In this document: one piece after another, positions 3,685 through 35,997 of the stretch
How positions within the stretch are numbered: position 1 is the first letter of the stretch
How the letters are laid out: each line of letters starts with the position of its first letter
IMG/VR virus record: IMGVR_UViG_3300042564_005462
Coordinates: 1 to 35,997 of that record
From: a virus
Reading direction: 5' to 3' (one strand)
DNA: 35,997 nt
Translations under genes and position numbers: made by a program
The notes under the pieces: generated by a model
Told to the model about the DNA's origin: nothing
Databases searched by the model: none
The model's input: the letters and a program-made list of their open reading frames with translations, nothing else

Positions 3685-3894
3685 ATGAGAACTGAAGTTT
3701 CTATTGACACGATAAATGTTTATAATCGAGTTATGTCTGGTAAGTTTTATAGTGAAAGACTTGCTATCTATTCTGAAAGATATCTTAATAAAATATTGAG
3801 ATTATTAGAAGAAGAAGATGAATTTGAGAAATGTATAATCTTTAAGAAGTTTATAGAGTCAAGATTTGACCATAAATCAAATTATACTTTATAA
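3685..3894 (+). CDS. Small helical protein after gp47, unknown function
   Basis: A 69-residue protein begins one base after the gp47 stop (TAAAATG), so the two are almost surely translated from one message. It is mostly charged helix with a Glu-rich stretch (LLEEEDEFEK) and an aromatic start. No known domain is recognised. Its end overlaps the convergent cupin-like gene by 6 bases. Tight coupling to gp47 suggests a role near recombination, but this is only context. Confidence 0.6.
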   Translation: MRTEVSIDTINVYNRVMSGKFYSERLAIYSERYLNKILRLLEEEDEFEKCIIFKKFIESRFDHKSNYTL

Positions 3895-4152
3895 TTTTAC
3901 TAACTTAATCTTTAATTCATTTGTACCTTTTATCAATCTGTGATAAACACCCATTGGTATAAATATTTCACCTTCAATATTCTTTGGTAATTCATTATCC
4001 AATTGTATTTTCCAGTCTGTGGTTTCAATGGATTCGATTATTCTATCTTCTCTATCACGGTGCCACATAAACTCACCAGAATCAGTATTTTGACTGAATA
4101 TTCTGATAAAAGTATTATCACTTATTTTATTTTCTTGAAATGGTAAAGACAT
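3889..4152 (-). CDS. Small cupin-like protein, unknown function
   Basis: Taken from ATG 4152 (MSLPFQ), the protein has 87 residues. The longer frame to 4179 would need a TTG start inside the upstream gene. The pattern is that of a small cupin-type barrel: W-H-R-D-R-E-D-R, then W-K-I-Q-L-D-N-E-L-P, then a turn with IFIPMGVYHRLIKG and a final strand. Two His residues (in FMWHRD and VYHR) and acidic residues could bind a metal. Similar small proteins with a WH-x-D-xx-R ... YHR pattern are common in T4-like phages and lack an assigned role. It is the last gene of the minus-strand cluster that starts at 6355. Confidence 0.6.
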   Translation of the reverse strand: MSLPFQENKISDNTFIRIFSQNTDSGEFMWHRDREDRIIESIETTDWKIQLDNELPKNIEGEIFIPMGVYHRLIKGTNELKIKLVKL

Positions 4153-4163
4153 TTTACTATTAT

Positions 4164-4913
4164 TTACTTTATTAACCAATTTACATATTTATCTACTCCC
4201 TTTTGACTCTTAAAGTTTGGATAATTTTCTACTGAATTTTCAATTTTTTCAATTATCTCACTCCAAAGAGGTTTAAATATTTCTCTATCTTGTTCTGATA
4301 ACTTACCTGCTGATGCTGAATCAATCAGTGGAGATATGAAGGATTCTATTGTCGTTTCATTCGCTCTTGGTGAATAATTAACATCTACAATGTTAATCTT
4401 TTTATTCTTAGTATCAATTAAGAAGTTATTTGGCTTTGATGGGTCAATAACAATGCCATTTTTAACTAATTGGTCCGTTTCTTCAACTAATTTATCAAAG
4501 GCAGATTGTGGAAGATTTGCAATTTCCTTTATTATAGAAAGATAGGGTTCTTTTGGTAATCCTCTACCACCAGCTGGAATTCCAACTTGCTTACGAAGAA
4601 TTTTAATAGGTTCGTCTCCAATAATACCCCATTTACTTTCGTGTTGTGATCTCGCAACTGCTTGTCCACAATTAAAATCAACTGGAAAGTCCACTGGTAT
4701 AATCTCAGTGACTTTAAACTCTTCAGGTCTATTTACAACAGACTTTTTTAACCTTAAAACTAAATTAGGATAATTTGGTATCTCAAATACCATAGCATTT
4801 CCTCCACGTCCTAATTCTTTTTTATTAGGATCAGATATTATTTGATTTATTTCATTTACACTTGGAATTTTTGAAGTACTTTCAAATAATTTATATGATT
4901 TTAAATGTTTCAT
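4164..4913 (-). CDS. Protein kinase-like protein with head-targeting-like leader
   Basis: Residues 1-11 (MKHLKSYKLFE) look like the capsid-targeting leader of T4 internal head proteins (MKTYQEFIAE), which the head protease gp21 cuts after Glu. The rest shows a kinase fold in order: a glycine-rich loop G35-R-G-G-N-A-M-V-F43, a basic strand LVLRLKK (K56/K57) in the place of the ATP-binding Lys, a catalytic-loop-like segment VID157PSKPNNFLID, and IVD177VNY in the place of the DFG motif. The Asp-x4-Asn-Asn pattern resembles the kinase/aminoglycoside phosphotransferase superfamily. The inferred role is a phosphotransferase packaged in the head and injected with DNA. The substrate is unknown, and an inactive pseudokinase is possible. 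It sits in a cluster of other leader-bearing genes. Confidence 0.6.
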   Translation of the reverse strand: MKHLKSYKLFESTSKIPSVNEINQIISDPNKKELGRGGNAMVFEIPNYPNLVLRLKKSVVNRPEEFKVTEIIPVDFPVDFNCGQAVARSQHESKWGIIGDEPIKILRKQVGIPAGGRGLPKEPYLSIIKEIANLPQSAFDKLVEETDQLVKNGIVIDPSKPNNFLIDTKNKKINIVDVNYSPRANETTIESFISPLIDSASAGKLSEQDREIFKPLWSEIIEKIENSVENYPNFKSQKGVDKYVNWLIK

Positions 4914-4930
4914 TTACTATATAATATTTT

Positions 4931-5503
4931 TTACCAGAATCCAGGATAAGTTTTACCGCCCCAAAGGTGTCCATATTTGTTTATTCTACAAGCCCAGTAT
5001 CCAGCTTTAGTTTTATCTTTCTTCATATCACAATTGTGTCTAGAAGCAAAAGCTTTTCTTGCTTTAGGATTACTAACTTTAGCTGTTAATCCACCATGAA
5101 CATCACCAAAAGCTATCTTTTTAACTTTACCTGTTTTTGGATTCTTCACATAAACGTGGTATTTCTTAGTTCCACCTCTCATAGGGTGATTTAATTTAAC
5201 TTCCTTATCATGGTATTTAGCTTCTTGTATAGCTTCAATATTTTCCATAGGTAAATCCAAAGGAACTAATTCACCATTGTACATTCCAAACTTACCAATA
5301 TCAGTTGATTCATATAATTCTTTATCAACATCGCATAAATTAACTCTACCTAAGTCAAATAGTTCTCTCGCTTCTTTGATTACGTTAAAGAAAGCTTCTG
5401 ATCCAGGCCTGAATATATTTTCAGTAATAGGTTTGTTATTCTCTAAATGATATTTAAGAGATTCTGATATGTTAATAGATTCAGTGAATTTTACAACTTC
5501 CAT
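4931..5503 (-). CDS. Putative virion-internal protein with C-terminal basic HNCD domain
   Basis: The N-terminal half contains several L/I/F-x-E sites (KFTE, ITE, LYE) that a T4-type head protease could cut. The C-terminal 85 residues are strongly basic and have the pattern V-K-K-I-A-F-G-D, S/N-P-x-A-R-K-A-F-A-S-R-H-N-C-D, then K-T-K-A-G-Y-W-A-C-R, ending in GHLWGG. This module (arginine-rich, with HNCD and YWxC) is known from many phage structural or internal proteins, but its activity is not established. The two Cys and the His could bind zinc, and its charge suggests DNA contact. It lies between a kinase-like gene and a Cys-rich acidic gene, 8 bases from the latter. Confidence 0.55.
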   Translation of the reverse strand: MEVVKFTESINISESLKYHLENNKPITENIFRPGSEAFFNVIKEARELFDLGRVNLCDVDKELYESTDIGKFGMYNGELVPLDLPMENIEAIQEAKYHDKEVKLNHPMRGGTKKYHVYVKNPKTGKVKKIAFGDVHGGLTAKVSNPKARKAFASRHNCDMKKDKTKAGYWACRINKYGHLWGGKTYPGFW

Positions 5504-5511
5504 ATTGTTAA

Positions 5512-5982
5512 TTATTTATTTAATGATCCTATAAAGTCTTGTATGCTCATAACTTTAACATCTGATTCTGGATTTACCTCTTCTGATCCACAATTACAAT
5601 CATCACAACATCCACATCCTTCTTCTCCGCTACAATCATCACAACATCCCGATGTTTCACTTTCTTCATCTTCTAAGAAGTCCGTTCCTCTAAGTTCTTT
5701 GCTTGATTGTTTATCAACTTCATATTCATCAGTTGGTTGTCCAAAGTCGTCTGAGATACCTAAATCGTCATCGTCATTTGATATGCTTATTGTAATGAAT
5801 GATTCGAATTTTTCAATTTTGTCCATAGACTTCTTGAATTCTTTCTGAACTTTTTCATTATCCTCAACTTCAGTTTTGAATGATGGTTTTTCTTCCTTAT
5901 CTTTTTCTAAGGATTTAGCAGTAAATAAAACCTCTTGGTCTTTTACTTTTTCTTCTTTTGATTCAAATCTTTTGATTTTCAT
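5512..5982 (-). CDS. Acidic Cys-rich (metallothionein-like) protein with short leader
   Basis: From ATG 5982 it encodes 156 residues; the GTG at 5991 would overlap the upstream stop codon and is less likely. The N-terminus MKIKRFE-S resembles the head-targeting leaders of its neighbours. The body is highly charged Lys/Glu, then Asp-rich (NDDDDLG). A compact segment near residue 120 has nine Cys in about 21 residues, in the patterns CCDDC, CGCCDDC and C. This resembles a metal-binding cluster, with acidic residues between Cys pairs, but no known metallothionein family is recognised. The end (VMSIQDFIGSLNK) is a short amphipathic helix. It follows the upstream gene with a one-base gap (TAATATG). 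Confidence 0.55.
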   Translation of the reverse strand: MKIKRFESKEEKVKDQEVLFTAKSLEKDKEEKPSFKTEVEDNEKVQKEFKKSMDKIEKFESFITISISNDDDDLGISDDFGQPTDEYEVDKQSSKELRGTDFLEDEESETSGCCDDCSGEEGCGCCDDCNCGSEEVNPESDVKVMSIQDFIGSLNK

Positions 5983-5983
5983 A

Positions 5984-6355
5984 TTATTCACTTATCTTTT
6001 TTACTATTCTGGCGCATTTTTCATACTCCTCATTTTGTTCTAACTCTTTAATATAGTCTAAGAGTTGTCTTCTATTAGAAAGTTCTAATCTTATTCTAAA
6101 TCTTATCTCTTCTAACTCTTTCATATTCATAGAAGAGTTATCGATTAACTTATTAACCGTGTCCCTTTCAAATTTAGTACTATTGCTAAATCTATCCCAA
6201 GTTTCAATACCATTCTCACTAAGAAACTTTACTATTTCATCAACACATAAGTCTATTCTTGACTTAACTGTATTCATACTTTTCTTTTTCTTACCAAATA
6301 CCTTTCTAAAGAACCCCTCATTTATGAATTCTTCGTAATTATTTATCCTTGACAT
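5984..6355 (-). CDS. Small basic helical protein with head-targeting-like leader
   Basis: The 123-residue protein begins MSRINNYEEFINE-G, the closest match in the window to the T4 internal-protein leader (MKTYQEFIAE-A). A strongly basic stretch follows (FRKVFGKKKK) and then long amphipathic helices with an E/R-rich repeat. It is the first gene of the minus-strand cluster 6355 to 3889. A role as an internal head protein that contacts DNA is inferred from the leader and the basic segment. No domain family is recognised. Confidence 0.55.
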   Translation of the reverse strand: MSRINNYEEFINEGFFRKVFGKKKKSMNTVKSRIDLCVDEIVKFLSENGIETWDRFSNSTKFERDTVNKLIDNSSMNMKELEEIRFRIRLELSNRRQLLDYIKELEQNEEYEKCARIVKKISE

Positions 6356-6426
6356 AATGATTATATATTAATTTTGAGTATTAAGAAATGTAAAATTAAT
6401 ATATAATGAAAACCAATTAAAATTAA

Positions 6427-9400
6427 ATGTCAGAAAAGAATCTTTATTTCTTTAACAAAGAAGGAGACTATCTAAATTTCAGTTATAATGAATTTGATCA
6501 AAGATTTGAGGGAAATATACTTTTTCATGAAAATTCTAATGATACATATAAAACGTATGGAATTTACACACTAGAAAAAATAGATTCATTTGAGTATGAG
6601 TTACCAGGTCAGTTAACAACTGATAAATTTCAATTATTCAACGATTATGGACTTCACTTTTATTCAGCTAAGTATGCTACTCAGAGTGTAATAAAAGTAG
6701 AACCTGTTAATAATGATCCTGATTTTTATACAAAGTGGATTTATGGTGATGATTTTGATGTTAAGTTTCCACTTGGTACACTAATTAAATTCAATAGTTC
6801 AATTTTAGAGTTCATAAATCTAAATCAAACATATGTTGTTGTTAGTTCTAAAAAGGGAGCTATAATGATATTATCTCAAATGGATAATGCAACATTTGAA
6901 ACATCATATTATCAAATATATTTAGATGAATATGGTGATAACTTTGAGGACATAACAATCTCTGGTATTAATGCGGTTGGTGTTTATAACTATATTGATT
7001 CAAGTTATAATAATAATTTATCTCTTTGGTCTGAACCTAATTTTTATGATAAGTACTATGTTGGTAAGAAATTAAATATAGTAAATACTGAAAAAAATGA
7101 TGGTATTTTAACCGTTAAAAATATAGATGTTACCGACACCGCTCACTTTGAGTATTATGTTAATAAAACATCACTTCCTACTAATACAAATCTTGTAATG
7201 GAGGTTATAACGAGAACTGATGTTCCAAAGGTATATGAAGGTGAAATTGATTTAACATCTAATAATAGAATATATGTTGATCCAACAAACTATCCTCAAA
7301 TATTAAAATCTGGTACTGAGTTTAAAGTAATAGGATCTGTGAATAATACTAATTTCTTTACAGTTGCTAGTGTACCTGACTTTAACTATATTACAACGAC
7401 TACTTATCACGCTACACAATCTCAAGTTTTATACAAAAATAGAGTATATCAATGTGTTAAAGGATATACTCAAAGTTACGGTGGTGCAATTAGTGTTTCT
7501 TATATAACACCAGATAATACAGAATATTGGGGAGCTCCTGACCATATAAAAGTTAATGAGGCTATTACTCCTGATACTTTACTATTTGGTCAATTATATT
7601 TAACAACAGATAGATATTACTTTGATTTTGGCTGGACTGGTTCAAATGCTATAACACTTGCTTCAGTAGCTCAAAAATACCAAGAGGATTTAAAAATTTT
7701 TAATATTGACTTATATTACAAAGATAATAAGTTAAGAGCTGATTTAGTTTACCCTAGTAAATATTCAACTGTTAATTTTTATCATACTCAATTAGGTTCA
7801 ACATATTCAATTGGTAATATGTTAGAAACTCGTGAAAGATTAGTTGAAGTTGTGGAAACATTAAACTATGAGTTTAATTATGATTATTCCGAGAATATAA
7901 AATATAATATTGTTTTTACTGATTTAGATGAATATGGATTTAAAGTTACTATAAATGGAATGGTATATGATGAAGAAGTTGCTTTTGTTTATACTGGTTC
8001 TGAAATTGATATGGAGAGAACTATCGATAGAACTCTTAGAAACTGGTTAACAAGATATTATGTTCAACTTTATACATTAGGTATAAATGCTGAGATAAAA
8101 TATATTGGTAATTACAATTCTATATTCTACAACTCTATTGTACTTATTTCTGAATATCCTAATGTTCCTATGATACTTAATAGTGTTTTGGTTGGTTCAA
8201 CCGCTAACTTTTATATTGAACATTCACGAGTTTTACTTAATGATTTAGGTCCTTATTTTAATATTAATATAAATAACAATGATTATGGAGTATCCACTGT
8301 TTATGGAGCTTCTGCTATTCCAAATATACCAAGTACTTTACAAAGTTGGGTAGACTCACATGCTGAGACATTACTACCTTTTGATATAATTGTGATTAAT
8401 ATAAATAATTTGTTAAAGTTTGATGTTACAAGTTTAGAAAGAAGATTAGAATATACTATTAACTCTGGTAAAATTAATTTACCTGGTATATATGACTACA
8501 CAATAACTGATAAGATTTTAGGTAATCATGGATCTTTAATTGCGTCAAACCAAATTTTACTTCCATCTACATCTGGTGTTTCTTTTGAACAGGAGGGATT
8601 TGCTACGGGAATGGCACTTGCTATAAATAATACATTTCATCCTTATGTTAACCAAGAGTATGTTGTTCAATTTTTAGATCCATTAGTTATGGATTTAAGT
8701 TATCAAGGTCCTTTCTGGGGATTGACAGATAGTATTTGTAATTCATCTGCTTTTATTACATTGGCATTTAATACCGGATTTGGACAAACAGCTTGTTCGG
8801 GTCCAATTGGTCCAACTGGATTTGGTGGTGAATTTGACACTTTACCTTATGGTGGATTTAATCCGGTCATGTTTAGTGTTACATATAATCCAAATAGTTA
8901 TACTTTAAATGGATTTGACTTTAGTTCTTATCCGGGTTCTGGTAATTTAGTAGATATTAAATATATTCAATTATCTAGTTCTATATTAGCTTATGGTGAT
9001 GGATTAGTGGCAATTGACTCTTATTTTGGTGATTATATTACTACGGTTAATTTACCAGGTAACACACAAAGTATTGAGATGGAATTCAATACAGTTAATA
9101 ACTATGTTTATTGTTTATCTAAACACAATATCTATGTTGTTGACTCAATGATAAATACCTTAGTTGGTAGTATGAGTTTGTATGGTACAGCTAGTGATAT
9201 GGCTATTAATCCTGTTAATGGTGATGTTTACATTTCTTATGAGACAGAACCTAAAGTTGATATATTTTCTTATAATAACTTAACATCGGTTCCTAGTGGT
9301 TCATTGAACTTGGCTTCTTTAGTTAGTTCGGGAATAAGTAGAACTGGTAAAATGGTATTTAATGATTTTGAAGGAGATATGTATATCACGACTGATAATG

Positions 9401-12162
9401 ATTTTGTTGTTAGAGTTAATTCTGATAGATCTATTCAAACTACATACGGTATACTTGGATTGACACACTCAATATTTTACGAGCCAGTTGAAGAAGCTAT
9501 TTATGTTTATGGTTCTGCTAGTTTGTGGAAAATCGATAATAATCTTACACAATCAATATCTGGATTAACGGCTGGATTTGCTGATGTTATTTATAACAAC
9601 ACCTCAGGTGAGATGAATATTTCAGATTCTTCTGGTAATTTTACAAGATTGGATTTAGATGCTAATATTACATCTCAGACTTTTACATCTGGTGAATATG
9701 GTTATCTAAGTGTTAATCAGTTTGATGGTGATGTCTACAGAACAAATTTAACTTCAGCTTCTACTGGTATTAGAGTTTTTGACTCAAATACTGGTGCTGT
9801 TAAACACACTTCTTCTATATCAGCTATTGCTACTAAGATAATTTATAACCCTGAGAGAAAATCTGTTTGGGCCATACAACCATCGATAAATTCAGTTGTT
9901 GAAATTTTAGTAACACTTAACGGAACTATAAATTTAATATCATCTACATCATCACTTATAAGTGAGAACTTATATGGTACATTAGATCCTAATTATGTTC
10001 CTAAAGATGATATTTGGTTAAAAACAAGAGAGTATTTTAGAAGACCAAGAGAAAACTTCCAAAATGATTCAATTCCGGTTAAGTATTATTGGAAATGGAT
10101 ATCTGATGAAGTTCCTGACTTCTTTATTTATGATTTTTCAGGTGAACAATTAGCGACAACCGGTGCTTATTCTTATACTGGTCCAAAACCATTAACAAAC
10201 GTTGTACTTAATAAGTTACCTAATAAAGATATAACAAAAATATCTTATCCTGAATATCAACAAACTATATTTGATAGAGTTGACTTTACTTTAAGTTATA
10301 TTGATGATGAGACTGATATATCAACAGCTGCTGAACCATTAGAATTGTTCTTAGGATTTAAATCTAATGATGAAGGTGCTTTGAGGTCTGTTCTTCAACT
10401 TTATAAAAGTGAGGAAATTCAATTTAATATTACTTCTGATGTTAATACAACTTTAACTTTTGATACTATTAATGATAATGATAAAAGAGGTATAGTAAAA
10501 ATCAATACAAATTCATCAGAGACATTCACAAATAAAGGACTTAAACCTGGCCAACATATTGTAATCTATGTTAAAGATGATAGTAATTCTAAGAATCAAT
10601 ATATTTCTGAAAACAATGGTATTGTTCTTAAAGTAAGAGAAGTTTATACCAAAACTCTAATTGTTGATTTCTTTAATGTTTCTTATGATTTATTAGAAGC
10701 TGAATCAACTGTTATTTCTAATTATCCATCTACTGGTAATACTACATATTTAAAGACTACTATAAAGGTTAAAGATAGAGAGATAGGAAGATTTATCACA
10801 TATGGTCAAACAGAAGAAGAAGATATCAGATTTAAAGTTGAATTAGGAAATATTGGTAAGTTAATTAGTCCAGATGAGATATTTATTTTCAAAGAGTATG
10901 ATATTAATGAAGGTGGTGTTGATTGGATTTTCTTGAATAAGAAAAGAAAAGAAATGTTGATGAACAAAGATGTTATATTTTCTTACATAGGATCTTATAA
11001 GTCAATAATAAATGCTATCAACTATTTTGGATATAATGATTTACAACTAAATGAGTATTATAGAAATATAGATGGATCCTCTAGAGATTTTGGTAAATTA
11101 TTTAAAGTTGAAATTCCTGATATATTTGATAATACTATTAAAGGTTGGAATGAGAATGACTTTCTTAAAAACACACTACCTAATGAAAAGTTTGAAGAAA
11201 CTAATTCATTTAACCTAACTTATTTTATAACAGATACTGAAGGTAATTATATACTAAACTATACTTTAGATGAGATTATTATAAAGTTACAAGGACTGAA
11301 GTTCTGGTTGAAAAAGAATATTGTTCCTTTAACTCATAAGATATTAGATATAACTGGTAGAACATTCTTAAAAAGTGGTACTCAAATACAACATAATTTA
11401 TACGATATTAAAATATTTAATATGAGAGAGGAAATGACACCAGTCACATTTAAAATGAATGAGGCATATCTTTACCCAGTTAATAGTGGATCTACAGTTT
11501 ATAACTGTGTATTAGACTTCTATAGTATAATACCTGAGAGTAGCATACCAATTATTCCTTATGTGGATAATCCAAAACCTTATAATGATGCTAATTTAAC
11601 TCCACCTGATTACTTTAATATTAAAATAAGAACGTATAAAACATATAAAGAGTGGGTTCCATTTACAACTTATAATACAGGTGATAAAGTTCTTTACTAT
11701 AATACTTTATATGAGTCAGTAATTGATAATAATAAAATTAAAAATCCAAGAAAATATGATAATATTAGTACTTGGTCAGCTAATATATCTTATCAAGTGT
11801 CTAATGTTACTGAATATAACAGAGATTATTATGTTTATAGTGGATTAGGTACAGCAACTTCTAGTACTCCAAATAATGATACACTAAATTGGTTAAATGT
11901 AACAGAGTGGAAAAAGATAGATTTAGAACCAGTTCAAACAATAAATGAGTTTAGATCCGGTGATGATTTATTACCTTATAACTTTACAATAGATTCAAAT
12001 TTGGATCCATTTATAATTATTGAAGTTAGTTCTGATAATAGTTATGGTCAGACATATACAGATAAAAAAAGTTACCTAATAAAAGGTCTTAAAGACCTAA
12101 CTGATGAATACTCATATATTGATCCAATAGGACCTTTCCAAGCAATAACTCCAGTTTATTAA
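6427..12162 (+). CDS. Giant virion protein (baseplate/fibre type) with beta-propeller and C-terminal carbohydrate-binding-like modules
   Basis: At 1911 residues this is the largest gene in the window, and it is rich in Tyr, Asn, Thr and beta structure as phage tail proteins are. The first 800 residues are beta-rich and hold a W/Y module near residues 325-370 like a small sugar-binding fold. Residues about 838-1165 contain repeated strands of the form N-x-V-N-x-D-V-Y-I with G-x-V/T turns, typical of a YVTN/NHL-like beta-propeller. Residues 1507-1548 (KEMLMNKDVIFSYIGSYKSI and following, then FGYND) resemble a helical motif in P2 gpI-type tail proteins. The last 180 residues have two modules with W-x-Y-x-x-G-D-K-V-x-Y, close to CBM5/12. 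Receptor or host-surface binding, or a baseplate scaffold, is inferred. A terminator follows. Confidence 0.6.
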   Translation: MSEKNLYFFNKEGDYLNFSYNEFDQRFEGNILFHENSNDTYKTYGIYTLEKIDSFEYELPGQLTTDKFQLFNDYGLHFYSAKYATQSVIKVEPVNNDPDFYTKWIYGDDFDVKFPLGTLIKFNSSILEFINLNQTYVVVSSKKGAIMILSQMDNATFETSYYQIYLDEYGDNFEDITISGINAVGVYNYIDSSYNNNLSLWSEPNFYDKYYVGKKLNIVNTEKNDGILTVKNIDVTDTAHFEYYVNKTSLPTNTNLVMEVITRTDVPKVYEGEIDLTSNNRIYVDPTNYPQILKSGTEFKVIGSVNNTNFFTVASVPDFNYITTTTYHATQSQVLYKNRVYQCVKGYTQSYGGAISVSYITPDNTEYWGAPDHIKVNEAITPDTLLFGQLYLTTDRYYFDFGWTGSNAITLASVAQKYQEDLKIFNIDLYYKDNKLRADLVYPSKYSTVNFYHTQLGSTYSIGNMLETRERLVEVVETLNYEFNYDYSENIKYNIVFTDLDEYGFKVTINGMVYDEEVAFVYTGSEIDMERTIDRTLRNWLTRYYVQLYTLGINAEIKYIGNYNSIFYNSIVLISEYPNVPMILNSVLVGSTANFYIEHSRVLLNDLGPYFNININNNDYGVSTVYGASAIPNIPSTLQSWVDSHAETLLPFDIIVININNLLKFDVTSLERRLEYTINSGKINLPGIYDYTITDKILGNHGSLIASNQILLPSTSGVSFEQEGFATGMALAINNTFHPYVNQEYVVQFLDPLVMDLSYQGPFWGLTDSICNSSAFITLAFNTGFGQTACSGPIGPTGFGGEFDTLPYGGFNPVMFSVTYNPNSYTLNGFDFSSYPGSGNLVDIKYIQLSSSILAYGDGLVAIDSYFGDYITTVNLPGNTQSIEMEFNTVNNYVYCLSKHNIYVVDSMINTLVGSMSLYGTASDMAINPVNGDVYISYETEPKVDIFSYNNLTSVPSGSLNLASLVSSGISRTGKMVFNDFEGDMYITTDNDFVVRVNSDRSIQTTYGILGLTHSIFYEPVEEAIYVYGSASLWKIDNNLTQSISGLTAGFADVIYNNTSGEMNISDSSGNFTRLDLDANITSQTFTSGEYGYLSVNQFDGDVYRTNLTSASTGIRVFDSNTGAVKHTSSISAIATKIIYNPERKSVWAIQPSINSVVEILVTLNGTINLISSTSSLISENLYGTLDPNYVPKDDIWLKTREYFRRPRENFQNDSIPVKYYWKWISDEVPDFFIYDFSGEQLATTGAYSYTGPKPLTNVVLNKLPNKDITKISYPEYQQTIFDRVDFTLSYIDDETDISTAAEPLELFLGFKSNDEGALRSVLQLYKSEEIQFNITSDVNTTLTFDTINDNDKRGIVKINTNSSETFTNKGLKPGQHIVIYVKDDSNSKNQYISENNGIVLKVREVYTKTLIVDFFNVSYDLLEAESTVISNYPSTGNTTYLKTTIKVKDREIGRFITYGQTEEEDIRFKVELGNIGKLISPDEIFIFKEYDINEGGVDWIFLNKKRKEMLMNKDVIFSYIGSYKSIINAINYFGYNDLQLNEYYRNIDGSSRDFGKLFKVEIPDIFDNTIKGWNENDFLKNTLPNEKFEETNSFNLTYFITDTEGNYILNYTLDEIIIKLQGLKFWLKKNIVPLTHKILDITGRTFLKSGTQIQHNLYDIKIFNMREEMTPVTFKMNEAYLYPVNSGSTVYNCVLDFYSIIPESSIPIIPYVDNPKPYNDANLTPPDYFNIKIRTYKTYKEWVPFTTYNTGDKVLYYNTLYESVIDNNKIKNPRKYDNISTWSANISYQVSNVTEYNRDYYVYSGLGTATSSTPNNDTLNWLNVTEWKKIDLEPVQTINEFRSGDDLLPYNFTIDSNLDPFIIIEVSSDNSYGQTYTDKKSYLIKGLKDLTDEYSYIDPIGPFQAITPVY

Positions 12163-12198: not shown

Positions 12199-12209
12199 TT
12201 TCTTTATGA

Positions 12210-12863
12210 TTAAATAACTTCACCTTGTACTGTCTCAGGTTGTCTATTTTCCATTGTAACACCATCTTCAAATGTTAGAACCCAATCTTGAACATCAGCT
12301 GATAGATTTTTACCAGTTGTATCATAGTAATTGAATATTTTACTGATAGCTCCAATTTTCATTAGAACTTCTGCAAAAAGATAAGAATCTTTTACCAATC
12401 CTTTAACTGTGTGTTTAGATATTAAGTGATAAACATATGTGATTTCAGTTGCGTTAACTGGGAAAGAAGTCAAGTCTTCATCATTTGTATATTTACCTTC
12501 TTTCATAGAGTCGAATAAATCTTTCAATTCAATTGCAAAAAATACACTATTCACATCATATTCTAATTTAGTTAAAACTAAATCAGTTAAGAATTTATGT
12601 TGAGGTCTATTTAGTTGGAAGTTGTATTTAGCTTCTTTTAACTCATTGATATACTCTTTCCATAAAGATTGAGCTTTTTGATAAAGTTCATCTTTTTCCT
12701 TGTTAGTTTTACCTTTTCCAGAATTTGTAAAGATATACTCTTTAATAGAGTTTAACTTATCATCTAACGTATTCTCAACTTCTTTATCAACTAAAAGATA
12801 TTGTTTACCATTTTCTTCAACGCTAACTTCTGGTTTAATTACATTTGTTTCTATTTTTTCCAT
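12210..12863 (-). CDS. Unknown protein in the tail/tape-measure cluster
   Basis: The 217-residue protein is acidic and mostly helical. The N-terminal 30 residues look extended (ETNVIKPEVSVEENGKQYLL), followed by a Lys/Glu-rich helix with GKGKTNKEKDELYQKAQ and a Trp helix (LWKEYINELKEAKYNFQL). No signal peptide or membrane segment is seen and no family is recognised. It is the last gene of the minus-strand run starting at the tape measure (18060), and a terminator follows. A tail assembly or virion role is suggested by location only. Confidence 0.6.
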   Translation of the reverse strand: MEKIETNVIKPEVSVEENGKQYLLVDKEVENTLDDKLNSIKEYIFTNSGKGKTNKEKDELYQKAQSLWKEYINELKEAKYNFQLNRPQHKFLTDLVLTKLEYDVNSVFFAIELKDLFDSMKEGKYTNDEDLTSFPVNATEITYVYHLISKHTVKGLVKDSYLFAEVLMKIGAISKIFNYYDTTGKNLSADVQDWVLTFEDGVTMENRQPETVQGEVI

Positions 12864-12882
12864 TTTTTATTATTATTTTTTA

Positions 12883-13314
12883 TTATGCTATGAATTCTTC
12901 GTCAGTTTTCGCATCTTTCTTTTGTTCTTGGTAAAGTTCTTCAACTTTATTAGCTCTTGCTACTTTCTCCACTCCGTATTTATTAACAATTGATGAGAAT
13001 GTGTTTAAGTCAGTTTTACCTAATTTGATTTTACCTGTTTCGATATTGATGTTAATTTTATCAATTTCTTGTTCGATTAAAATAGTTGTTGATTCTTCAT
13101 CAAATACCATCATCAAATCTTCATTGATAGATACTAATATCTCTTTTTCTAAAAGAAATGAGAATTTTGGTGGAATCACTGATACTTTAATCAGTTCTTT
13201 TTGTTTTTCATCCCCCTCAAATTGAAATTTGATAGAAACTGGAAACGCTTTTTTGTTAAATACCTCAAAGAATGTTGCTATTGTATCCTCTGACAATTCG
13301 TAGAAATTATCCAT
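12883..13314 (-). CDS. Unknown protein, tail cluster
   Basis: The 143-residue protein is about half beta strands (FPVSIKFQFEGD, KVSVIPP, ILVSINEDLMMVFD) and ends in a charged helix with EQKKDAKTDEEF. The beta part is followed by ILIEQEIDKININIETGKIK. The family is not recognised, although small proteins with this pattern occur beside structural genes in related phages as far as I recall. It lies 19 bases upstream of the 217-residue unknown gene, without a Shine-Dalgarno sequence between them. Confidence 0.58.
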   Translation of the reverse strand: MDNFYELSEDTIATFFEVFNKKAFPVSIKFQFEGDEKQKELIKVSVIPPKFSFLLEKEILVSINEDLMMVFDEESTTILIEQEIDKININIETGKIKLGKTDLNTFSSIVNKYGVEKVARANKVEELYQEQKKDAKTDEEFIA

Positions 13315-13368
13315 ATATTATTTTTATTTGTTTTTTATTATAAGAAAATTAAGTGAAAATGTTTAGTG

Positions 13369-13794
13369 TTAAACTAACAAAAATGTTAAAATAGTACCTA
13401 ATATTATTGTAGTCGGAATAAATATATAATATAACCTATTATAGAATGTATTACTTTTGAATAAAGAGAATCCAATTACAATTAAATATGAATATTTATC
13501 CACCTTTTTAACTTCGTAAATATCAAATAACTCATTTAATCCTTTGGAGTTTAGAAATGTTGATGTTTCTTTTACAAACTCTCTAATAAAGTTTTGTGAT
13601 ATAGTATCTATATCTGATTTTTTAAGTGAGTAAGCTTCTCCAACTAATTCTTCAGGTACATTTAGAACAGTATATAATCTATTGGCATTATCAATTCTAA
13701 ATCCAAATTTTTGTAAAATCTCTGATTTATTAGATTTGATAATCTTTCTATAAGAAAGAAAAAGTTTTAATTTTTTTAAAAATGATGTTTTCAT
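13369..13794 (-). CDS. Tail-anchored membrane protein, unknown function
   Basis: A 141-residue protein with a basic N-terminus (MKTSFLKKLKLFLSYRKIIK), a middle domain with F-G-F-R-I-D-N-A-N-R-L-Y-T-V-L-N-V-P-E-E-L, and a hydrophobic C-terminal segment (YIFIPTTIILGTILTFLLV) that looks like one membrane helix. It lies 48 bases downstream of the tape measure candidate on the same strand. A membrane-facing job during infection or tail assembly is possible. Function is not known. Confidence 0.6.
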   Translation of the reverse strand: MKTSFLKKLKLFLSYRKIIKSNKSEILQKFGFRIDNANRLYTVLNVPEELVGEAYSLKKSDIDTISQNFIREFVKETSTFLNSKGLNELFDIYEVKKVDKYSYLIVIGFSLFKSNTFYNRLYYIFIPTTIILGTILTFLLV

Positions 13795-13842
13795 ATTTAT
13801 ATTATATAAAAAGTTTACTTATTTGTTTACTCTCTATTCTCA

Positions 13843-16800
13843 TCAAAAACCAAATATTCCGGTAGAATCTTGTTTTAGTAATTTTAATATCTCATCTAAT
13901 TTATCAACTACTGGATTTCCTTTATCACCTTTTGTTCCGGATGATAAAACACCAATCATTTGGTCCATTTGTTTTGATAAGTAGTGTAGACTATTTCTTT
14001 TAGCTTGTTCTGGTGTCAAATATCTATCAGGGTTTAATTTCTTATCAGATACTCTATCTCCAACACTCGACATTTTTGATTGCTTAGGCATTTGCATTTC
14101 AGTTCCACTTGATCCACTACCAGATTTTTTAGTCATTTTACCATCAGCTAAATCTCTGGTCATTGTACCCAAATCTTTCATGCTTTTTAAATTAAGAGTT
14201 CTCATTGCGAATCCTAACTTCATTAAAGAGTTTGCTAAGGCATCATATCCTTTTGCTAGAGTTACCATTCTTCTAACTATTTGAGATATAGGGTCGGTTC
14301 CTAACATGCTTTCTATTCCTTGTCCAATTCTTCCAAAGAAACTTGTACCTTTTTCTGCTTCTGCTAGTTTCTTAATAACTTGGTTGAAATCTAGTATATT
14401 TTTACCTACATTTTTCATGTAGTTTGGATCTATATTGAATGCGAAATACTTTTTATTTTCCCATAATATTTTAGCAACACTTATCAACTGTATAGTAAGA
14501 TCTTTTATTAAACTCAAATCTTTTCTTTCTCTTACTGTTGTTGAAGATTTAGAAGCTCCGATTCCAAAAAATCCACTACTTACAGTTGTTACAGTTTTTT
14601 CACTTACTAACATCTTATCTAACATTAGTGCTAGTTTTCCAAATCCTAGTAAGTTTTTAGATAAGTTTTGAATATAGTTTGAATCTATTTTGAATTCGAA
14701 ATACTTTTTATTTTCCCATAATATTTTAGCGACACTTATTAATTGTATAGTAAGATCTTTTACTAAACTTAAATCTCTTCTTTCTCTTACAGTTTTTGTA
14801 GACTTAGAAGATCCAATTCCAAATACTCCACTATTTGTTGTTACTACAGTTTTTTCACTTACTAACATCTTATCTAATTTCAATGCTAGAGTTCCAAATC
14901 CTAAAAGATTCTTAGATAGATTTTTTACAAAGTTTTGGTCTAACTTAACTTTAAAGAACTTTTGATTGGTCCAAAGAATTCTTGCTACATCAGCCATTGC
15001 TTGAACACCAACTTTTAATATCATTGAGTTCAAAGCAAATGAAGTAGTTGTGTAACCTCTTTCTTCAATTGTGTCAAATAGGTCCATAAATCCGATAACC
15101 GATTTACCTACACCTTTTGCCCATTCTGATGTTGGGTATGACTTCCAAGCTTCTGGTTTTACTTTTATAAATTCTTTTGCTGCTAATACTAATGCTTTTG
15201 CGATAGTAACAATACCATATTTCATATTGTCTATAACATCATCACCACTTTCATACCAACTTCTACCTGATAAAGCTTCAAATACTGGTGCGAATGCGTT
15301 TAGAGATGCTCCAACACCTTTACCCCAATCTTTTGATGGATATTTACCTTCTTCAAATTTAGCCTTTCCTTTCTCAAAAACACCAGCTGCTGCGACTATA
15401 CCTTCTGCTATTAGTATTATAGCTTTTTTCATTTTTTTCCCACCACTGTAAGGGAAATCAACTAACATACTATAAACTGGTGCAAATGCTCCGATTGCTA
15501 ATCCAACACCTTTTGCCCAAGCGACCGGTGGTCCGTTTACAAATGCCGCTTTATTTTTAGCAAAATACCAAGCCGCTGAGATGATACCACCAGATACAGT
15601 TCTTATCGCTTTTGCAAAATCATCTGGTCCTACACCACCTCCTCCGCCAAAAAGTCCAGGTGCATTATCTACCAACATTTGATAGACCGGTGAGAAAGCA
15701 CCTAAAGCGATACCTACACCTTTTGCCCAAGCCTCTGTTGGTCCTTGTTTATAATCTCCTTTTTGTAATATCTTAGAAACATCTACTATCGACCAAGCGA
15801 TATCTTTCAACATTTTACGACCCGCTTCGAAAGGATTGGTTCCTCCAAAGAATTCTACTACAGCTCCCATTGCACCTACAGCTCCTAGTAAAATGATTAA
15901 TGGTGTAAATACTGTGTATAATAAAGCAACAGAAGCCGACCATCCTACTATTCCTGGTAGATTATAATTACCTTTTGCTAAAATTCCAGCAACTCCAACA
16001 ATAGTTTTTGCAACCAATAGTGTTATTCCTAACCCAGCATAAAAGAATGGATTAATTGCATTAAATCCTAATAATATAGCTGCAACTCCAAATGTTGCTA
16101 AGGCTGCTGCTACTCCTAAATTCCAAGATAGTGTTGGATATTTTTTATAGTTACCTGCCGCTAATATATGAGATGTTGCTATTATAGTAACTGCCACTAA
16201 CATTATTATACCTAATCCAGCATAAAAGAATGGATTCATTGTTTGTGTTCCTAAGAGTAAAGCGGCAACTCCAAATACTCCTAAGGCCGCAGCTACTCCA
16301 AGTGACCATTTTAAGGACGGATATTTTTTATAATTTCCTGCCGCTAATATATGAGAGGTCAACATTATTGTCAGAGCCACTATTACTATTGCTATACCAC
16401 CTTTGACGTATGTTCCTACTCCACCTAACATGGTTAGAATTTTTGCTACTAATCCAAATGCTATTATCGCGATAGCTGTTAATAATGTCCATCTCCATCC
16501 TGGATACTTACTATACTTACCTTTACTTAAAAGTATAGAAGCCAACATAATAGAAGTTGCTAAAATAACTATTGAAATTGATCCTTTTATAACTGTAGAG
16601 AAACCTATTACCTTAACTAAAAATAAAGCTCCTATTCCAAGAACTATCAGTGCTAATGTTAAAACAACACTGAATACTAATATTTTAAGCATTAACATAA
16701 AAGGTATATCAGCAGTTTTATTTAAAATGTGTGATGATAACATAATAGCCAATGACATCACAACAAGTACAAGTGGTATTAGGAATAGTTTACCTTTACC

Positions 16801-18060
16801 TAAAAGTTTTTCAACTAATACAACACCAATTGCAAGTTTTTCCATAAAATATGACATTATAGCAAATAAAATGGTTACTCCTAATGCGGTAACAAATTGC
16901 CAAAGTCCAATAGGTTTTGTCAATGATAATATCCAAGAAGATGCTGTAATTGCAGCAGCGATTCCAACTAATACTAAAATTAAATTAACCGGACTTACTT
17001 TTGTCTTTTTGAATGCAACTACACCCATAGCTATTTTTTCTAAATTAAATGCGACTATCGCGAACATAGCCGCTATTAATATAGCAGTTACTATCTGACC
17101 AAATGACATAGGTCTAACTAGTCCTAATACCCAAGATGATACTGTTATAGCGGTTGCGATGCCGAGTAAGGTTTTAATAAGTTCGAGTGGTTTAACTTTT
17201 AGTCTTTCAAACATTACTACCGCTACCCCTATCTTGTGCATATTATATGATATAATTGAGAATACAACAGCGATAGCAATTGCAGTCATTGCTTGTGCAA
17301 AACTTATTGGCATAATTAATTGAAACGCCCAAGAAGATGCCGTAATTGCTGCTGATATAGAAACTAAAGTAGTTATTAGTGCTAACTTACTTACCTTTAG
17401 TTTATCAAATAATATAGTTGCTGTAAATATATTTACTAATGATTTGGACATTACCGCAAAAGTCGCCGCGATAAAAATCGCTGTTAGTAATTGTGTAAAT
17501 CCAATAGGTTTAATAAGACTTAATACCCAAGATGATACAGTAAGTGCAGCAGACATCATAATCATAGTTAAGGAAGCCATTGCTGCTTGTTTTATTGATA
17601 AATTAAGTTTGGCTATCTTCTCAAATGCAATTGAAATAAGTACTATCGCTAATCCTAGTGATATAACTGATAGAAAATCTACTTTACCAACTAATTTGAA
17701 TGCCATACCGATAGCTAATACCGCTACTGCTATTAGTAAGATAGTTGCTACTCCTTTTTTGATTTGACCTTTTTTCTTCTCACCTCCAGATTCTTCTATA
17801 GCTTCAGTTTTCTTTTCACCACCCTTTTGTTTTTGTAACTGAATGATAGTTTCCTGATTCTTTAAAATCTTTTGGGTATCAGTTTTTACTGATTTAAGAC
17901 TGGTGTTAATCTCTGTTAATTGCTTAGAGAAATCACCACTTTTTAAAGCAGTGGTTGTAGCTGATTGACCTTTGTCATCACCTTTCTTTCCCAATGCCTC
18001 TGAGATTTTCTCTAAAGAGACTGATAAATTATCTAATGCTTTTAATAGTATCTTATCCAT
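13843..18060 (-). CDS. Tape measure protein candidate, 1405 residues, built from repeats
   Basis: A very long, hydrophobic-centred protein in a tail gene region is most likely the tail tape measure, which sets tail length and leaves through the tube at DNA injection. The N-terminal 100 residues are a coiled-coil-like charged region. Residues about 155-410 contain four copies of a 66-residue unit, each with the SSW motif at 176, 242, 308 and 374. Each unit has two hydrophobic helices. Residues about 510-700 have units of about 61 residues with ILAAGNYKKYP at 571 and 632 and variants at 509 and 693. Near the C-terminus an 85-residue unit recurs (KILWENKKYF and LDKMLVSEKTV). At the usual 1.5 angstrom per residue of helix, 1405 residues would allow a tail of about 210 nm. 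T4 gp29 is far shorter. No lytic or peptidase domain is seen. Confidence 0.62.
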   Translation of the reverse strand: MDKILLKALDNLSVSLEKISEALGKKGDDKGQSATTTALKSGDFSKQLTEINTSLKSVKTDTQKILKNQETIIQLQKQKGGEKKTEAIEESGGEKKKGQIKKGVATILLIAVAVLAIGMAFKLVGKVDFLSVISLGLAIVLISIAFEKIAKLNLSIKQAAMASLTMIMMSAALTVSSWVLSLIKPIGFTQLLTAIFIAATFAVMSKSLVNIFTATILFDKLKVSKLALITTLVSISAAITASSWAFQLIMPISFAQAMTAIAIAVVFSIISYNMHKIGVAVVMFERLKVKPLELIKTLLGIATAITVSSWVLGLVRPMSFGQIVTAILIAAMFAIVAFNLEKIAMGVVAFKKTKVSPVNLILVLVGIAAAITASSWILSLTKPIGLWQFVTALGVTILFAIMSYFMEKLAIGVVLVEKLLGKGKLFLIPLVLVVMSLAIMLSSHILNKTADIPFMLMLKILVFSVVLTLALIVLGIGALFLVKVIGFSTVIKGSISIVILATSIMLASILLSKGKYSKYPGWRWTLLTAIAIIAFGLVAKILTMLGGVGTYVKGGIAIVIVALTIMLTSHILAAGNYKKYPSLKWSLGVAAALGVFGVAALLLGTQTMNPFFYAGLGIIMLVAVTIIATSHILAAGNYKKYPTLSWNLGVAAALATFGVAAILLGFNAINPFFYAGLGITLLVAKTIVGVAGILAKGNYNLPGIVGWSASVALLYTVFTPLIILLGAVGAMGAVVEFFGGTNPFEAGRKMLKDIAWSIVDVSKILQKGDYKQGPTEAWAKGVGIALGAFSPVYQMLVDNAPGLFGGGGGVGPDDFAKAIRTVSGGIISAAWYFAKNKAAFVNGPPVAWAKGVGLAIGAFAPVYSMLVDFPYSGGKKMKKAIILIAEGIVAAAGVFEKGKAKFEEGKYPSKDWGKGVGASLNAFAPVFEALSGRSWYESGDDVIDNMKYGIVTIAKALVLAAKEFIKVKPEAWKSYPTSEWAKGVGKSVIGFMDLFDTIEERGYTTTSFALNSMILKVGVQAMADVARILWTNQKFFKVKLDQNFVKNLSKNLLGFGTLALKLDKMLVSEKTVVTTNSGVFGIGSSKSTKTVRERRDLSLVKDLTIQLISVAKILWENKKYFEFKIDSNYIQNLSKNLLGFGKLALMLDKMLVSEKTVTTVSSGFFGIGASKSSTTVRERKDLSLIKDLTIQLISVAKILWENKKYFAFNIDPNYMKNVGKNILDFNQVIKKLAEAEKGTSFFGRIGQGIESMLGTDPISQIVRRMVTLAKGYDALANSLMKLGFAMRTLNLKSMKDLGTMTRDLADGKMTKKSGSGSSGTEMQMPKQSKMSSVGDRVSDKKLNPDRYLTPEQAKRNSLHYLSKQMDQMIGVLSSGTKGDKGNPVVDKLDEILKLLKQDSTGIFGF
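14430..14966 (-). repeat. 255-bp direct repeats inside the tape measure gene
   Basis: Two near-identical stretches begin at about 14443 and 14698 (GAAATACTTTTTATTTTCCC) and a diverged third at 14953, giving an exact period of 255 bases (85 codons). They encode the 85-residue C-terminal unit of the tape measure. The high DNA identity of the first two suggests recent duplication or gene conversion. Confidence 0.85.
16750..17600 (-). repeat. 198-bp coding repeats of the tape measure (66-residue units)
   Basis: Four hydrophobic units of exactly 66 residues share the motif A-x-S-S-W and a following P-(I/M)-(G/S)-(F/L). Their SSW codons lie near 17535, 17337, 17139 and 16941, exactly 198 bases apart. 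The DNA has diverged more than at the 255-bp repeats. Confidence 0.8.
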
Positions 18061-18149: not shown

Positions 18150-18614
18150 ATGCAAATAAAACGACTGATTAAATATTACATTTTAGGTGAATCATTAAAA
18201 GAGATAGAAATGAATAGAATTCTAGAAAAAATATCGAAAACGAATAAATTGACAAAAAGAGAAAAAGACTTTCTTAATTTGTATAATATAACCAAAGATG
18301 AGGAAAAAGGCAGAGACCTTATGTACTTGTCTAAAAATGTTACTGTTAAAAAAATAAAAGAACTTATTGAAAAATATAAAAAAGTTATTTGTGATTTACA
18401 TGATAGAAACGGCAAGATAGGATTACAAATAATTGATATTGTTGATGAAGATAATGAAGAAGAAACTAGTTTAGTTATTATGAAGGGAAATGAAACTCAT
18501 AAACTACATGATAAGTTTTTATATAATATTATCTACAATACAAAAAAGGATGAATATTCACTACAAGAACAAGATGAATATTTCGAGAAAATAACAGTTA
18601 AAAATGAAGATTAA
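18150..18614 (+). CDS. Unknown charged helical protein
   Basis: The 154-residue protein is rich in Lys, Glu and Ile, with a predicted helical N-terminal half (KISKTNKLTKREKDFLNLY) and a beta-rich C-terminal half (IGLQIIDIVDEDNEEETSLV). The pattern N-x-x-T-K-R-E-x-D-F-L in the first half recalls small helix-turn-helix or protein-contact regions, but no family is recognised. Its end overlaps the next gene by 11 bases, so the two are probably co-translated. Confidence 0.55.
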   Translation: MQIKRLIKYYILGESLKEIEMNRILEKISKTNKLTKREKDFLNLYNITKDEEKGRDLMYLSKNVTVKKIKELIEKYKKVICDLHDRNGKIGLQIIDIVDEDNEEETSLVIMKGNETHKLHDKFLYNIIYNTKKDEYSLQEQDEYFEKITVKNED

Positions 18615-18882
18615 GAAATTTAACAAATTTGTAAATGAAGAGATATCCGGAACTGAATTAGTTGGTCCAGTTGGACCTGCTTATGGTGAAACTCGTTTAC
18701 AAAACAAAACAGTCGATGCTTCTGATACCAATGTTATTTATTCAGAATTAGATGGTAGTGTTTATTCAGAAGATGAATACAACAATCTTTATAATGAGTA
18801 TTTAAAAATGGGTGGTTCCCCTTTACACGGATTTTCACTAGAAAATATTAATATAATATTAGATTATATACAGAATAACTAA
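18604..18882 (+). CDS. Small protein with head-targeting-like leader
   Basis: The 92-residue protein starts MKIKKFNKFVNE-E, which fits the pattern of the T4 internal-protein leader (basic/hydrophobic, Phe, then x-N-E) and the leaders in the 4164-6355 cluster. The rest is acidic and Tyr-rich (YSEDEYNNLYNEYLKMGG) with a G-P-V-G-P-A-Y-G-E stretch. If the leader is removed the remaining protein would be about 80 residues. A packaged internal role is inferred only from the leader. It overlaps the preceding gene by 11 bases. Confidence 0.5.
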   Translation: MKIKKFNKFVNEEISGTELVGPVGPAYGETRLQNKTVDASDTNVIYSELDGSVYSEDEYNNLYNEYLKMGGSPLHGFSLENINIILDYIQNN

Positions 18883-35233: not shown

Positions 35234-35884
35234 TTATTTTTCTACTTTTATAGTAGTCCAATCTACATTAGGCATTAACTCTGTTACAACTTTACTTGCT
35301 TTCTTGATATATCTTTGATTATCATCATAGAATACAGCTTTTTTGAATCCTGTATCCTTTAGAATTTCAACTATCATTTCACCTTTCCAATGACCAGCAT
35401 TTTTAGTACCTACTGGTGCCATATGTAGTCCATACTTAGGAAGTTCTAATCCAAGTTCTTGTAATTTATTTGATACTTTACTTCTTAAAGATTCTTCTCT
35501 CGCTGTTACTATACACTTGTTTTCAACTGATTTGTAAAGTTCTGAGAGTTCTTTTAATTCTTTTGGTAGACTTATATCGGATATGTAAAATAAGTCGGGA
35601 GAAGTAAGATAAACACGATTACCTTTTCTTACCCAGTTTCCATAAATTCTTATTTGTTGTTGAGGATCTTCAACATAAATTCTACCATCTTGCCATTTTA
35701 AGTCATTAAGACTAACACCCACTCTTTTAACCGATAATTCTAATAAGTCTTTTATTGATACGTCTTCTTTTAAAAATTGAATAGCCAGCTCGTTGAAATC
35801 TGGTGATACAACAAGCGTGTCGTCAAAATCGAATATCCTAAGAGTTTCATTACTATCATTAAATTCCTTAAATCTTTTAATCAT
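35234..35884 (-). CDS. HAD-superfamily protein (SAK RNA-repair type) with head-targeting-like leader
   Basis: The 216-residue protein starts MIKRFKEFNDSNE, similar to the short basic/hydrophobic leaders elsewhere in the window, then has HAD motif I IFD19FD21DTL, a Thr motif (CIVTARE) and YDD near the end. Between them lie GLHMAPVGTKNAGHWKGEMI and N-R-Y-I-K-K-A, which resemble the HAD domain found in Swiss Army Knife RNA-repair proteins (HAD_SAK_1, PF10307). It would be a phosphatase acting on nucleic acid or nucleotide. The gene is convergent with, and abuts, the broken polymerase gene (no base between their stops), so its arrival may relate to the split. Confidence 0.68.
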   Translation of the reverse strand: MIKRFKEFNDSNETLRIFDFDDTLVVSPDFNELAIQFLKEDVSIKDLLELSVKRVGVSLNDLKWQDGRIYVEDPQQQIRIYGNWVRKGNRVYLTSPDLFYISDISLPKELKELSELYKSVENKCIVTAREESLRSKVSNKLQELGLELPKYGLHMAPVGTKNAGHWKGEMIVEILKDTGFKKAVFYDDNQRYIKKASKVVTELMPNVDWTTIKVEK

Positions 35885-35894
35885 TTAATATATA

Positions 35895-35997
35895 TTAATC
35901 TTCATCTCTAAAAAATATGTCAACAAGGTGTTTTAGATCACTTCCAAAGTGTCTTAAACACATACTATATATTTCTTCTTTTAATTCAAAACCTTGA
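35895..35997 (-). CDS. C-terminal end of an unknown small protein (partial)
   Basis: The minus-strand frame is open from the right edge to a TAA at 35895-35897 and reads ...GFELKEEIYSMCLRHFGSDL, then KHLVDIFFRDED-stop. It is the end of a gene that begins outside the window. It lies 10 bases upstream of the HAD gene on the same strand. No function can be assigned. Confidence 0.5.
   Translation of the reverse strand, partial: QGFELKEEIYSMCLRHFGSDLKHLVDIFFRDED

Follow-up and report, generated by a model that had tools for sequence, protein, structure and literature searches.

A cluster of four leader-bearing genes in a Mahaphage-type phage: a putative cargo cassette of an expanded T4-like internal-protein system

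The window analysed here, IMGVR_UViG_3300042564_005462, is a complete IMG/VR record and consists of a linear fragment of 35,997 bases. Its minus strand carries, between positions 4164 and 6355, a cluster of four genes whose proteins begin with short leaders ending in glutamate. The initial annotation proposed that these proteins are packaged in the head of a Bacteroidota phage, and the four open reading frames (ORFs) were found on this strand exactly where it had placed them, with the N-termini that it quoted. The gp47-like nuclease of the window is 79% identical to that of LR745206.1 (634,780 bases) and 66% identical to that of LR756502.1 (642,428 bases), the two nearest complete genomes, referred to below as W01 and W02; the corresponding values for the baseplate-wedge protein are 66% and 58%. 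Window genes are mostly 35–95% identical to these two genomes, and gene order is largely colinear, most genes having their best matches in order along 164–235 kb of W01 and in W02. Judged by its sequence, the window is a piece of a Mahaphage-type huge phage. In sections of Al-Shayeb et al. (2020; PMC7162821) the largest genomes are placed in the Mahaphage clade and Bacteroidetes hosts are predicted for those above 634 kb, in agreement with the proposed host. ORFs of both complete relatives were called by a simple longest-first rule, and their start codons are uncertain.

The gene next to the divergent baseplate-wedge gene (5984..6355, minus strand) encodes a protein of 123 residues, in which the leader MSRINNYEEFINE (6317–6355) is followed by a lysine-rich remainder beginning GFFRKVFGKKKK. 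The second (5512..5982, minus) encodes an acidic, cysteine-rich protein of 156 residues (CCDDC...CGCCDDC) with the leader MKIKRFE (5962–5982); the ORF list has a GTG 9 bases upstream of 5982, and homologues favour the ATG. The third (4931..5503, minus; 190 residues) has the leader MEVVKFTE (5480–5503) and a C-terminal phrog_7595 domain (E 1.3e-11), which is named ‘HVA1 family’ in some records. The fourth (4164..4913, minus; 249 residues) has the leader MKHLKSYKLFE (4881–4913). The four proteins were said to differ completely beyond their leaders; we saw no likeness among the remainders, and their family matches differ. Searches of Pfam and PHROGs returned no significant family for the 5984, 5512 and 4164 cores; a weak match of the first to phrog_2667 (‘internal head protein’, E 0.08) was not significant. 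No relatives of the 4164 core were found except in near-identical contigs. Inspection by eye suggested protein-kinase-like features in it (GRGGNAMVFE, LRLKK, DPSKPNNFLID, IVDVNY); the only PDB sequence matches for a kinase fold had E 0.1, and a single-sequence model was poor, with a predicted local distance difference test score (pLDDT) of 44.5, and we treat the kinase identity as a weak lead.

A nine-position leader profile, learned by expectation maximisation from all N-termini of W01 and W02 and none of the window, settled on K-[YH]-[LI]-K-x-[YF]-[NEK]-x-[F], as in MKHLKKYNE/S and MKHLKTYKIFE/S (a slash marks the predicted cut). The window leaders were then scored against a control of 11,248 internal methionine positions. 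The leader of 4164–4913 scored 20.0 bits, the highest in the window, which none of the 11,248 controls reached, and that of 5984–6355 scored 6.5 bits, which 0.4% of controls reached (p about 0.004). The scores of 4931–5503 (0.3 bits, 4.7% of controls) and 5512–5982 (−5.7 bits, 26%) are not significant alone. By this measure two of the four leaders stand on their own, while the other two are supported by canonical leaders on homologues.

To compare the locus among relatives, we retained 80 loci from IMG/VR that encode proteins related to 4931, so that at least 80 homologous loci exist. The relatives of this protein have variable N-termini (MEVVKFTE, MKIIKFTE, MKYLKLFESF, MNYIKKFNNF, MKHIKQF, MLKPFQAWITE) and are conserved in the rest of the sequence; homologues with the canonical leaders MKYLKLFESF, MNYIKKFNNF and MKYIKKFNEE score 15–19 bits. 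A homologue of the 5512 protein in W01 (208377–208574) begins MKHIKRFNEAKEDKDQE and scores 19.1 bits, and another, in contig L204, begins MTHIKRFNETKEE (8.3 bits). Homologues of the 5984 protein at the same locus begin MRKIDTYIEFINEEFF in W01 (49% identity), MSRIRKYKEFITES in W02 (47%) and MKINRYNQFINEEFF in contig L216; MKINRYNQFINE, MSRIRKYKEFITE and MRKIDTYIEFINE are leaders of such homologues. The families of 5984, 5512 and 4931 therefore carry tags elsewhere. We note that the 5512-type cysteine-rich protein and the 4931-type protein are naturally fused in four contigs (L210, L214, L219 and L221).

The genes recur in the order baseplate wedge, 5984-like, 5512-like, 4931-like, variable slot, cupin-like gene and gp47, with the window gene 4164–4913 occupying the variable slot. 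The cupin-like gene (3889..4152, minus strand in the window; recognised by eye, no Pfam match) encodes a small protein without a leader, closes the cassette in many contigs and follows the slot in 30 distinct contig arrangements. The 30 distinct slots that reach this gene contain 42 genes, 28 of them tagged; several of the untagged ones look like GIY-YIG endonucleases on inspection or are ORFs with an in-frame MKHLKTY downstream of their first ATG. Together with that of the window there are thus 29 tagged slot proteins. Their cores belong to 10 families unrelated to each other, all behind a nearly uniform MK[HY]LKxY[KQ]xFES. These comparisons support the view that the locus behaves like the internal-protein locus of phage T4, with near-invariant leaders on unrelated cores. 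One tagged slot family, LYHGNRKGDFPP...GAIFLT...GSKNVAIFDE, occurs in eight contigs (L205, L216, L217, L226, L237, L275, L277 and L280). By eye it resembled an ADP-ribosyltransferase, like the packaged T4 Alt; this assignment was unsupported, as the model had a pLDDT of 57, no Foldseek match fell below E 0.75 and no PDB relative was found. Separately, a 476-kb contig (L283, 451–4099) contains a tandem array of six consecutive tagged genes whose post-tag sequences differ, with a seventh further along.

As a check on its reading, the initial annotation had suggested scanning whole genomes for the leader and looking for a gp21-type protease, and both searches gave positive results. At a threshold of at least 12 bits, the profile selects 103 of 888 genes in W01 and 127 of 914 in W02, where 0.3 and 0.6 are expected from internal methionines and 0.2 from shuffled sequences. 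A second pattern, class B, is the regular expression KKYxxFI[NK]E, which also fits the T4 tag: among 112 T4 ORFs it selects only the internal proteins IPII and IPIII. Both of these start MKTYQEFIAE, as the initial annotation stated, but IPI, to which it had ascribed the same start, begins MKTFKEFTSTTTPVSTITE instead. Profile and class B together give 136 leader genes in W01 (15.3%) and 169 in W02 (18.5%). The leader glutamate falls at residue 7–16, mostly at 8, 9 or 11. A plain hydrophobic-x-Glu motif is only weakly enriched in N-termini, and the glutamate alone is therefore not the signal. Leaders are present on 5–6% of genes in relatives of 636, 735 and 462 kb (for W05, W06, W07 and W08 the scan covered the first 400 kb), and there is no enrichment in immuto, Melnitz or AT-rich Lak (0–0.5% of genes). 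Lak phages (code 15), scanned as a possible further case, have neither leaders nor the scaffold repeats described below. Targeted searches of the open-access literature, with subscription papers outside their scope, gave no report of such leaders for huge phages, and none are mentioned in the sections of the Mahaphage paper that we cite (Al-Shayeb et al., 2020; PMC7162821).

The leader codons vary synonymously at every position and stay near genome-wide use (His CAT/CAC 57/43, four codons for Leu, both GAA and GAG for Glu), apart from some codon bias at positions 6 and 9. Selection therefore acts on the protein, and a DNA-level signal behind the leaders was rejected on this ground. In W01 and W02 together, the 305 leader proteins fall into 219 core families, of which 170 are singletons. 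Among reciprocal-best pairs less than 40% identical, the leader is kept by 11 of 12 partners; of 75 untagged genes, only 4 are paired with a tagged one. The tag is a signal at the protein level, kept in divergent orthologues and attached to unrelated cores. Leader genes are clustered, with 50 adjacent pairs in one genome (expected 20.9 ± 4.0) and 79 in the other (31.2 ± 4.5), and turn over faster than other genes, 38% having a reciprocal best hit as against 50% of the others.

Among the tagged proteins of W01 and W02 is an RNA ligase 1 (E 1e-56), which becomes homologous to T4 Rnl1 from its residue 23 onwards, close to residue 8 of Rnl1; since the homology starts after the tag, the leaders are add-ons. 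Other tagged proteins are a CCA-adding or poly(A) polymerase and a 2′-5′ RNA ligase/Acb1-like domain joined to a DEDD-type exonuclease, and further tagged domains are nudix, cyclase, methyltransferase, SET, GNAT, HNH, M15 and lysozyme. The RNA ligase and the CCA enzyme would suit tRNA repair at the onset of infection. One copy each of the tagged proteins of W01 sums to about 3.1 MDa. This is small next to SPN3US, a phage of 240 kb whose internal protein is estimated at more than 40 MDa (PMC10052503), and head capacity is therefore no obstacle to packaging.

A Pfam S77 protease, the gp21 type, is present in both complete relatives (LR745206, 198546–200669; LR756502, 225272–227371), with homologues in LR756504 and LR756501. 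The matches (E 1e-4 in W01 and 2e-5 in W02) are below the curated cut-off; the active-site motifs are kept, as GEFDHP and SSRA compared to GELNHP and SSRG in T4 gp21, and tblastn ties the proteins to annotated head proteases. No S77 match was found in the 36-kb window fragment, which also does not include the terminase and capsid-protein genes. In LR745206 the protease domain occupies 198546–199094. The proteins are approximately 700–800 residues long and join the protease to a scaffold-like tail, which contains 11–13 near-repeats of YSEYIAE in W01, W02, W05 and W07, and five degenerate ones in W06. There are none in the proteases of Lak-A1, immuto or Melnitz. Leaders occur on 5.2–18.5% of genes in W01, W02, W05, W06 and W07 and on 0–0.5% in Lak-A1, immuto and Melnitz, which is suggestive of an association between scaffold repeats and leaders across these eight related genomes. 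The capsid protein (PF07068) has a propeptide predicted to end EYAEFHSINE/NAYANAS, comparable to FLTE/A in T4 gp23. In LR756501, two short ORFs apart from the full capsid gene (276342–276932 and 145891–146127) match N- and C-terminal parts of this protein.

The residue after the leader glutamate is serine in 39% of cases, compared to a background of 7–8%. T4 gp21 cleaves after L/I-x-E (PMC9026906), and SPN3US gp245 prefers serine at P1′ (PMC10052503). The hydrophobic-x-Glu/Ser end of the leaders fits cleavage by a gp21-type protease, and scaffold repeats, capsid propeptide and leaders are predicted to share a site of one specificity. Peptides expected directly after the predicted glutamate include STSKIPSVNEINQ, GFFRK..., SINISESLK and SKEEK.

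Two further window genes carry candidate leaders outside the cluster. The first (18604..18882, plus strand; 92 residues) matches the T4-style class-B pattern, with the leader MKIKKFNKFVNE (18604–18639) and a predicted cut at MKIKKFNKFVNE/E; its W01 orthologue begins MIKKFYQFINEISGTELVGPVGP. The second (35234..35884, minus; 216 residues) encodes a HAD/polynucleotide-kinase-phosphatase-like protein (phrog_415, E 0.003) with a weaker leader, MIKRFKEFNDSNE; its W02 orthologue begins MMRIKKFESF. Next to it, the DNA polymerase ORF (33707–35233) has 508 residues and stops before an opposite-strand gene. Its W01 and W02 homologues are of similar length, which suggests a split family-B polymerase.

A motif resembling a late promoter, TTAATATATA, lies ahead of the cassette (6362..6371, minus strand), with another copy for the divergent baseplate-wedge gene 6427–12162 (6396..6405, plus) and a third before gene 35234–35884 (35889–35898). 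It precedes 94 of 297 leader genes, using a looser leader set, compared to 122 of 1144 others; the relaxed form T[AT]ATATATA precedes 137 of 305 leader genes and 233 of 1497 others (p 7e-27). The motif starts most often 14–16 bases before the ATG (117 genes), with a second peak at −28 to −37. A similar motif was seen by eye before the capsid-protein, protease-scaffold, wedge and tape-measure genes (the W02 tape-measure gene is without it), and none was seen by eye before the DNA polymerase, thymidylate synthase and gp47 genes. It may represent a late promoter, and a promoter 14–16 bases from the ATG would yield nearly leaderless mRNAs.

We consider it likely that the four-gene cluster is a cargo cassette in a Mahaphage-type phage, with leaders that act as capsid-targeting sequences and products that are packaged, cleaved and ejected. 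Late in infection, the leader would dock each new protein onto the prohead core, which would consist of the protein that fuses the S77 protease to a scaffold with 11–13 copies of the leader-like YSEYIAE motif. Once activated, the protease would cut after the glutamate of hydrophobic-x-Glu in the scaffold repeats, the capsid propeptide and the cargo leaders. The scaffold would then disintegrate, and the mature cargo would stay free in the head beside the DNA until it is ejected when the next host is infected. From sequence comparisons we infer the steps of docking, cleavage, packaging and ejection, and the action of the cargo on the host or its defences. The balance tips slightly towards a wider proposal, namely that this branch of Mahaphages loads well over 100 different proteins into each head, including an RNA ligase, a CCA-adding enzyme and a 2′-5′ phosphoesterase that could undo tRNA-cleaving and cyclic-nucleotide defences as infection begins, and that a single evolvable tag copies the protease-scaffold repeat, so that about ten codons would make any gene injectable.

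Several observations weigh against the cargo interpretation. No virion proteome was found for this phage group. A set of 136–169 packaged species is far beyond that of T4, and one tagged protein matches DNA-primase families, a replication enzyme being unexpected as cargo. Among the 305 tagged proteins, 46 (about 15%) have no clear hydrophobic-x-Glu within residues 7–16. The 5512 and 4931 leaders are degenerate in the window phage, and the correlation between repeats and leaders comes from eight genomes and is confounded by kinship. The leader could instead be a docking or localisation tag for another intracellular phage structure, such as the replication compartment, the membrane or a transcription complex, given the very large number of tagged proteins and the primase match. 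We regard this as rather improbable, since the tag matches both the scaffold-repeat and capsid-propeptide motif and the cleavage preference of the head protease of T4, genomes without scaffold repeats are also without the tag, and the tag that conforms to this pattern in T4 has been proven to target proteins to the capsid (PMC9026906). It is also unlikely, although somewhat less so, that the leaders mark prohead-core proteins with a structural role, for example in shaping a very large head or condensing DNA, and that most of them are not injected effectors. As with some core proteins of T4, part of the cargo is small and either basic or acidic (5984 being lysine-rich and 5512 acidic and cysteine-rich), and T4 IPIII also affects head assembly (PMC9026906); however, the fast turnover, the hypervariable slot and enzymatic cargo (such as RNA ligase, CCA-adding enzyme, 2′-5′ phosphoesterase, and nudix, methyltransferase, SET and GNAT domains) fit delivered effectors better.

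The cluster could also be ordinary, with two chance leaders and two unrelated neighbours, as the background scores of 5512 and 4931 in the window phage would allow; since the corresponding locus of other contigs has canonical leaders on its versions of 5984, 5512 and 4931, and the slot of 4164 is mostly tagged, we judge this very improbable. The N-terminal likeness could alternatively arise at the DNA level, from a promoter or translation signal extending into the coding start, or from composition bias, and the AT-rich genomes, the promoter-like motif near starts and the codon bias at positions 6 and 9 are in line with this. Such an origin is scarcely credible in view of the synonymous variation of Tyr, His, Leu, Lys and Glu codons at near genome-wide use, the failure of shuffled N-termini and internal-methionine controls to reproduce the leader, and its absence from immuto, Melnitz and AT-rich Lak.

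Should the tags function as they do in T4, injected proteins would account for around one sixth of the genes in some of the largest phages known, which would give a function to a large share of their unannotated genes and a partial reason for the size of the genomes and heads. The leader would also provide a sequence-based rule by which to identify candidate anti-defence proteins, and tag, repeat scaffold and protease together would form a modular loading system.

The proposed system can be compared with those of other phages. Like the giant phages phiKZ and SPN3US, whose inner-body and ejection proteins offer one comparison, these phages have large heads and a diverged gp21-type protease predicted to cut after glutamate, with serine preferred at P1′ in SPN3US (PMC10052503). 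In SPN3US there are nine cleaved substrates, mostly with long propeptides (111–254 residues), and 42 head proteins are uncleaved (PMC10052503). By contrast, the Mahaphage-type tag is short, uniform and present on very many genes, with its glutamate at residue 7–16 where phiKZ/SPN3US propeptides mostly exceed 100 residues. Within the Mahaphage clade, Lak phages are without leaders, unlike W01 and W02. Melnitz-type T4-like phages (Kyanoviridae) resemble the present system in having a few neighbouring proteins with T4-like leaders (MQGFKTFLSE/A, MLTLINFSKYITE/D, MKKFSEIIE/A), but they have only a handful of these, and their protease is without scaffold repeats. Three such neighbours lie at 12203–16866 of Melnitz MZ577097, the third of which has a TTGH nucleotidyltransferase-like domain (by eye) and a 4931-type domain.

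The closest parallel is with T4 itself, whose internal proteins IPI–III and Alt, with their capsid-targeting sequence and the gp21 protease, were reportedly treated by Mullaney and Black in 1996. The ten-residue targeting sequence of IPIII suffices for loading, and the internal proteins of T-even phages are diverse defence proteins in which only this sequence is conserved (PMC9026906, PMC3012670). Both systems have a short, aromatic-bearing N-terminal tag ending in hydrophobic-x-Glu, unrelated cores that share only the tag, a hypervariable locus, an S77 protease with GExxHP and SSRG-type motifs, and a capsid protein cut at a similar site (here predicted). They differ in number, since T4 has three internal proteins and Alt whereas the Mahaphage relatives have 136–169 tagged genes (15–18%), and also in the tag dialect, MKHLKxYKxFE/S, in the fusion of the protease to a scaffold with 11–13 tag-like repeats, and in the tRNA-repair-type enzymes among the putative cargo. 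The comparison supports the description of this system as a massively expanded variant of the T4 internal-protein system.

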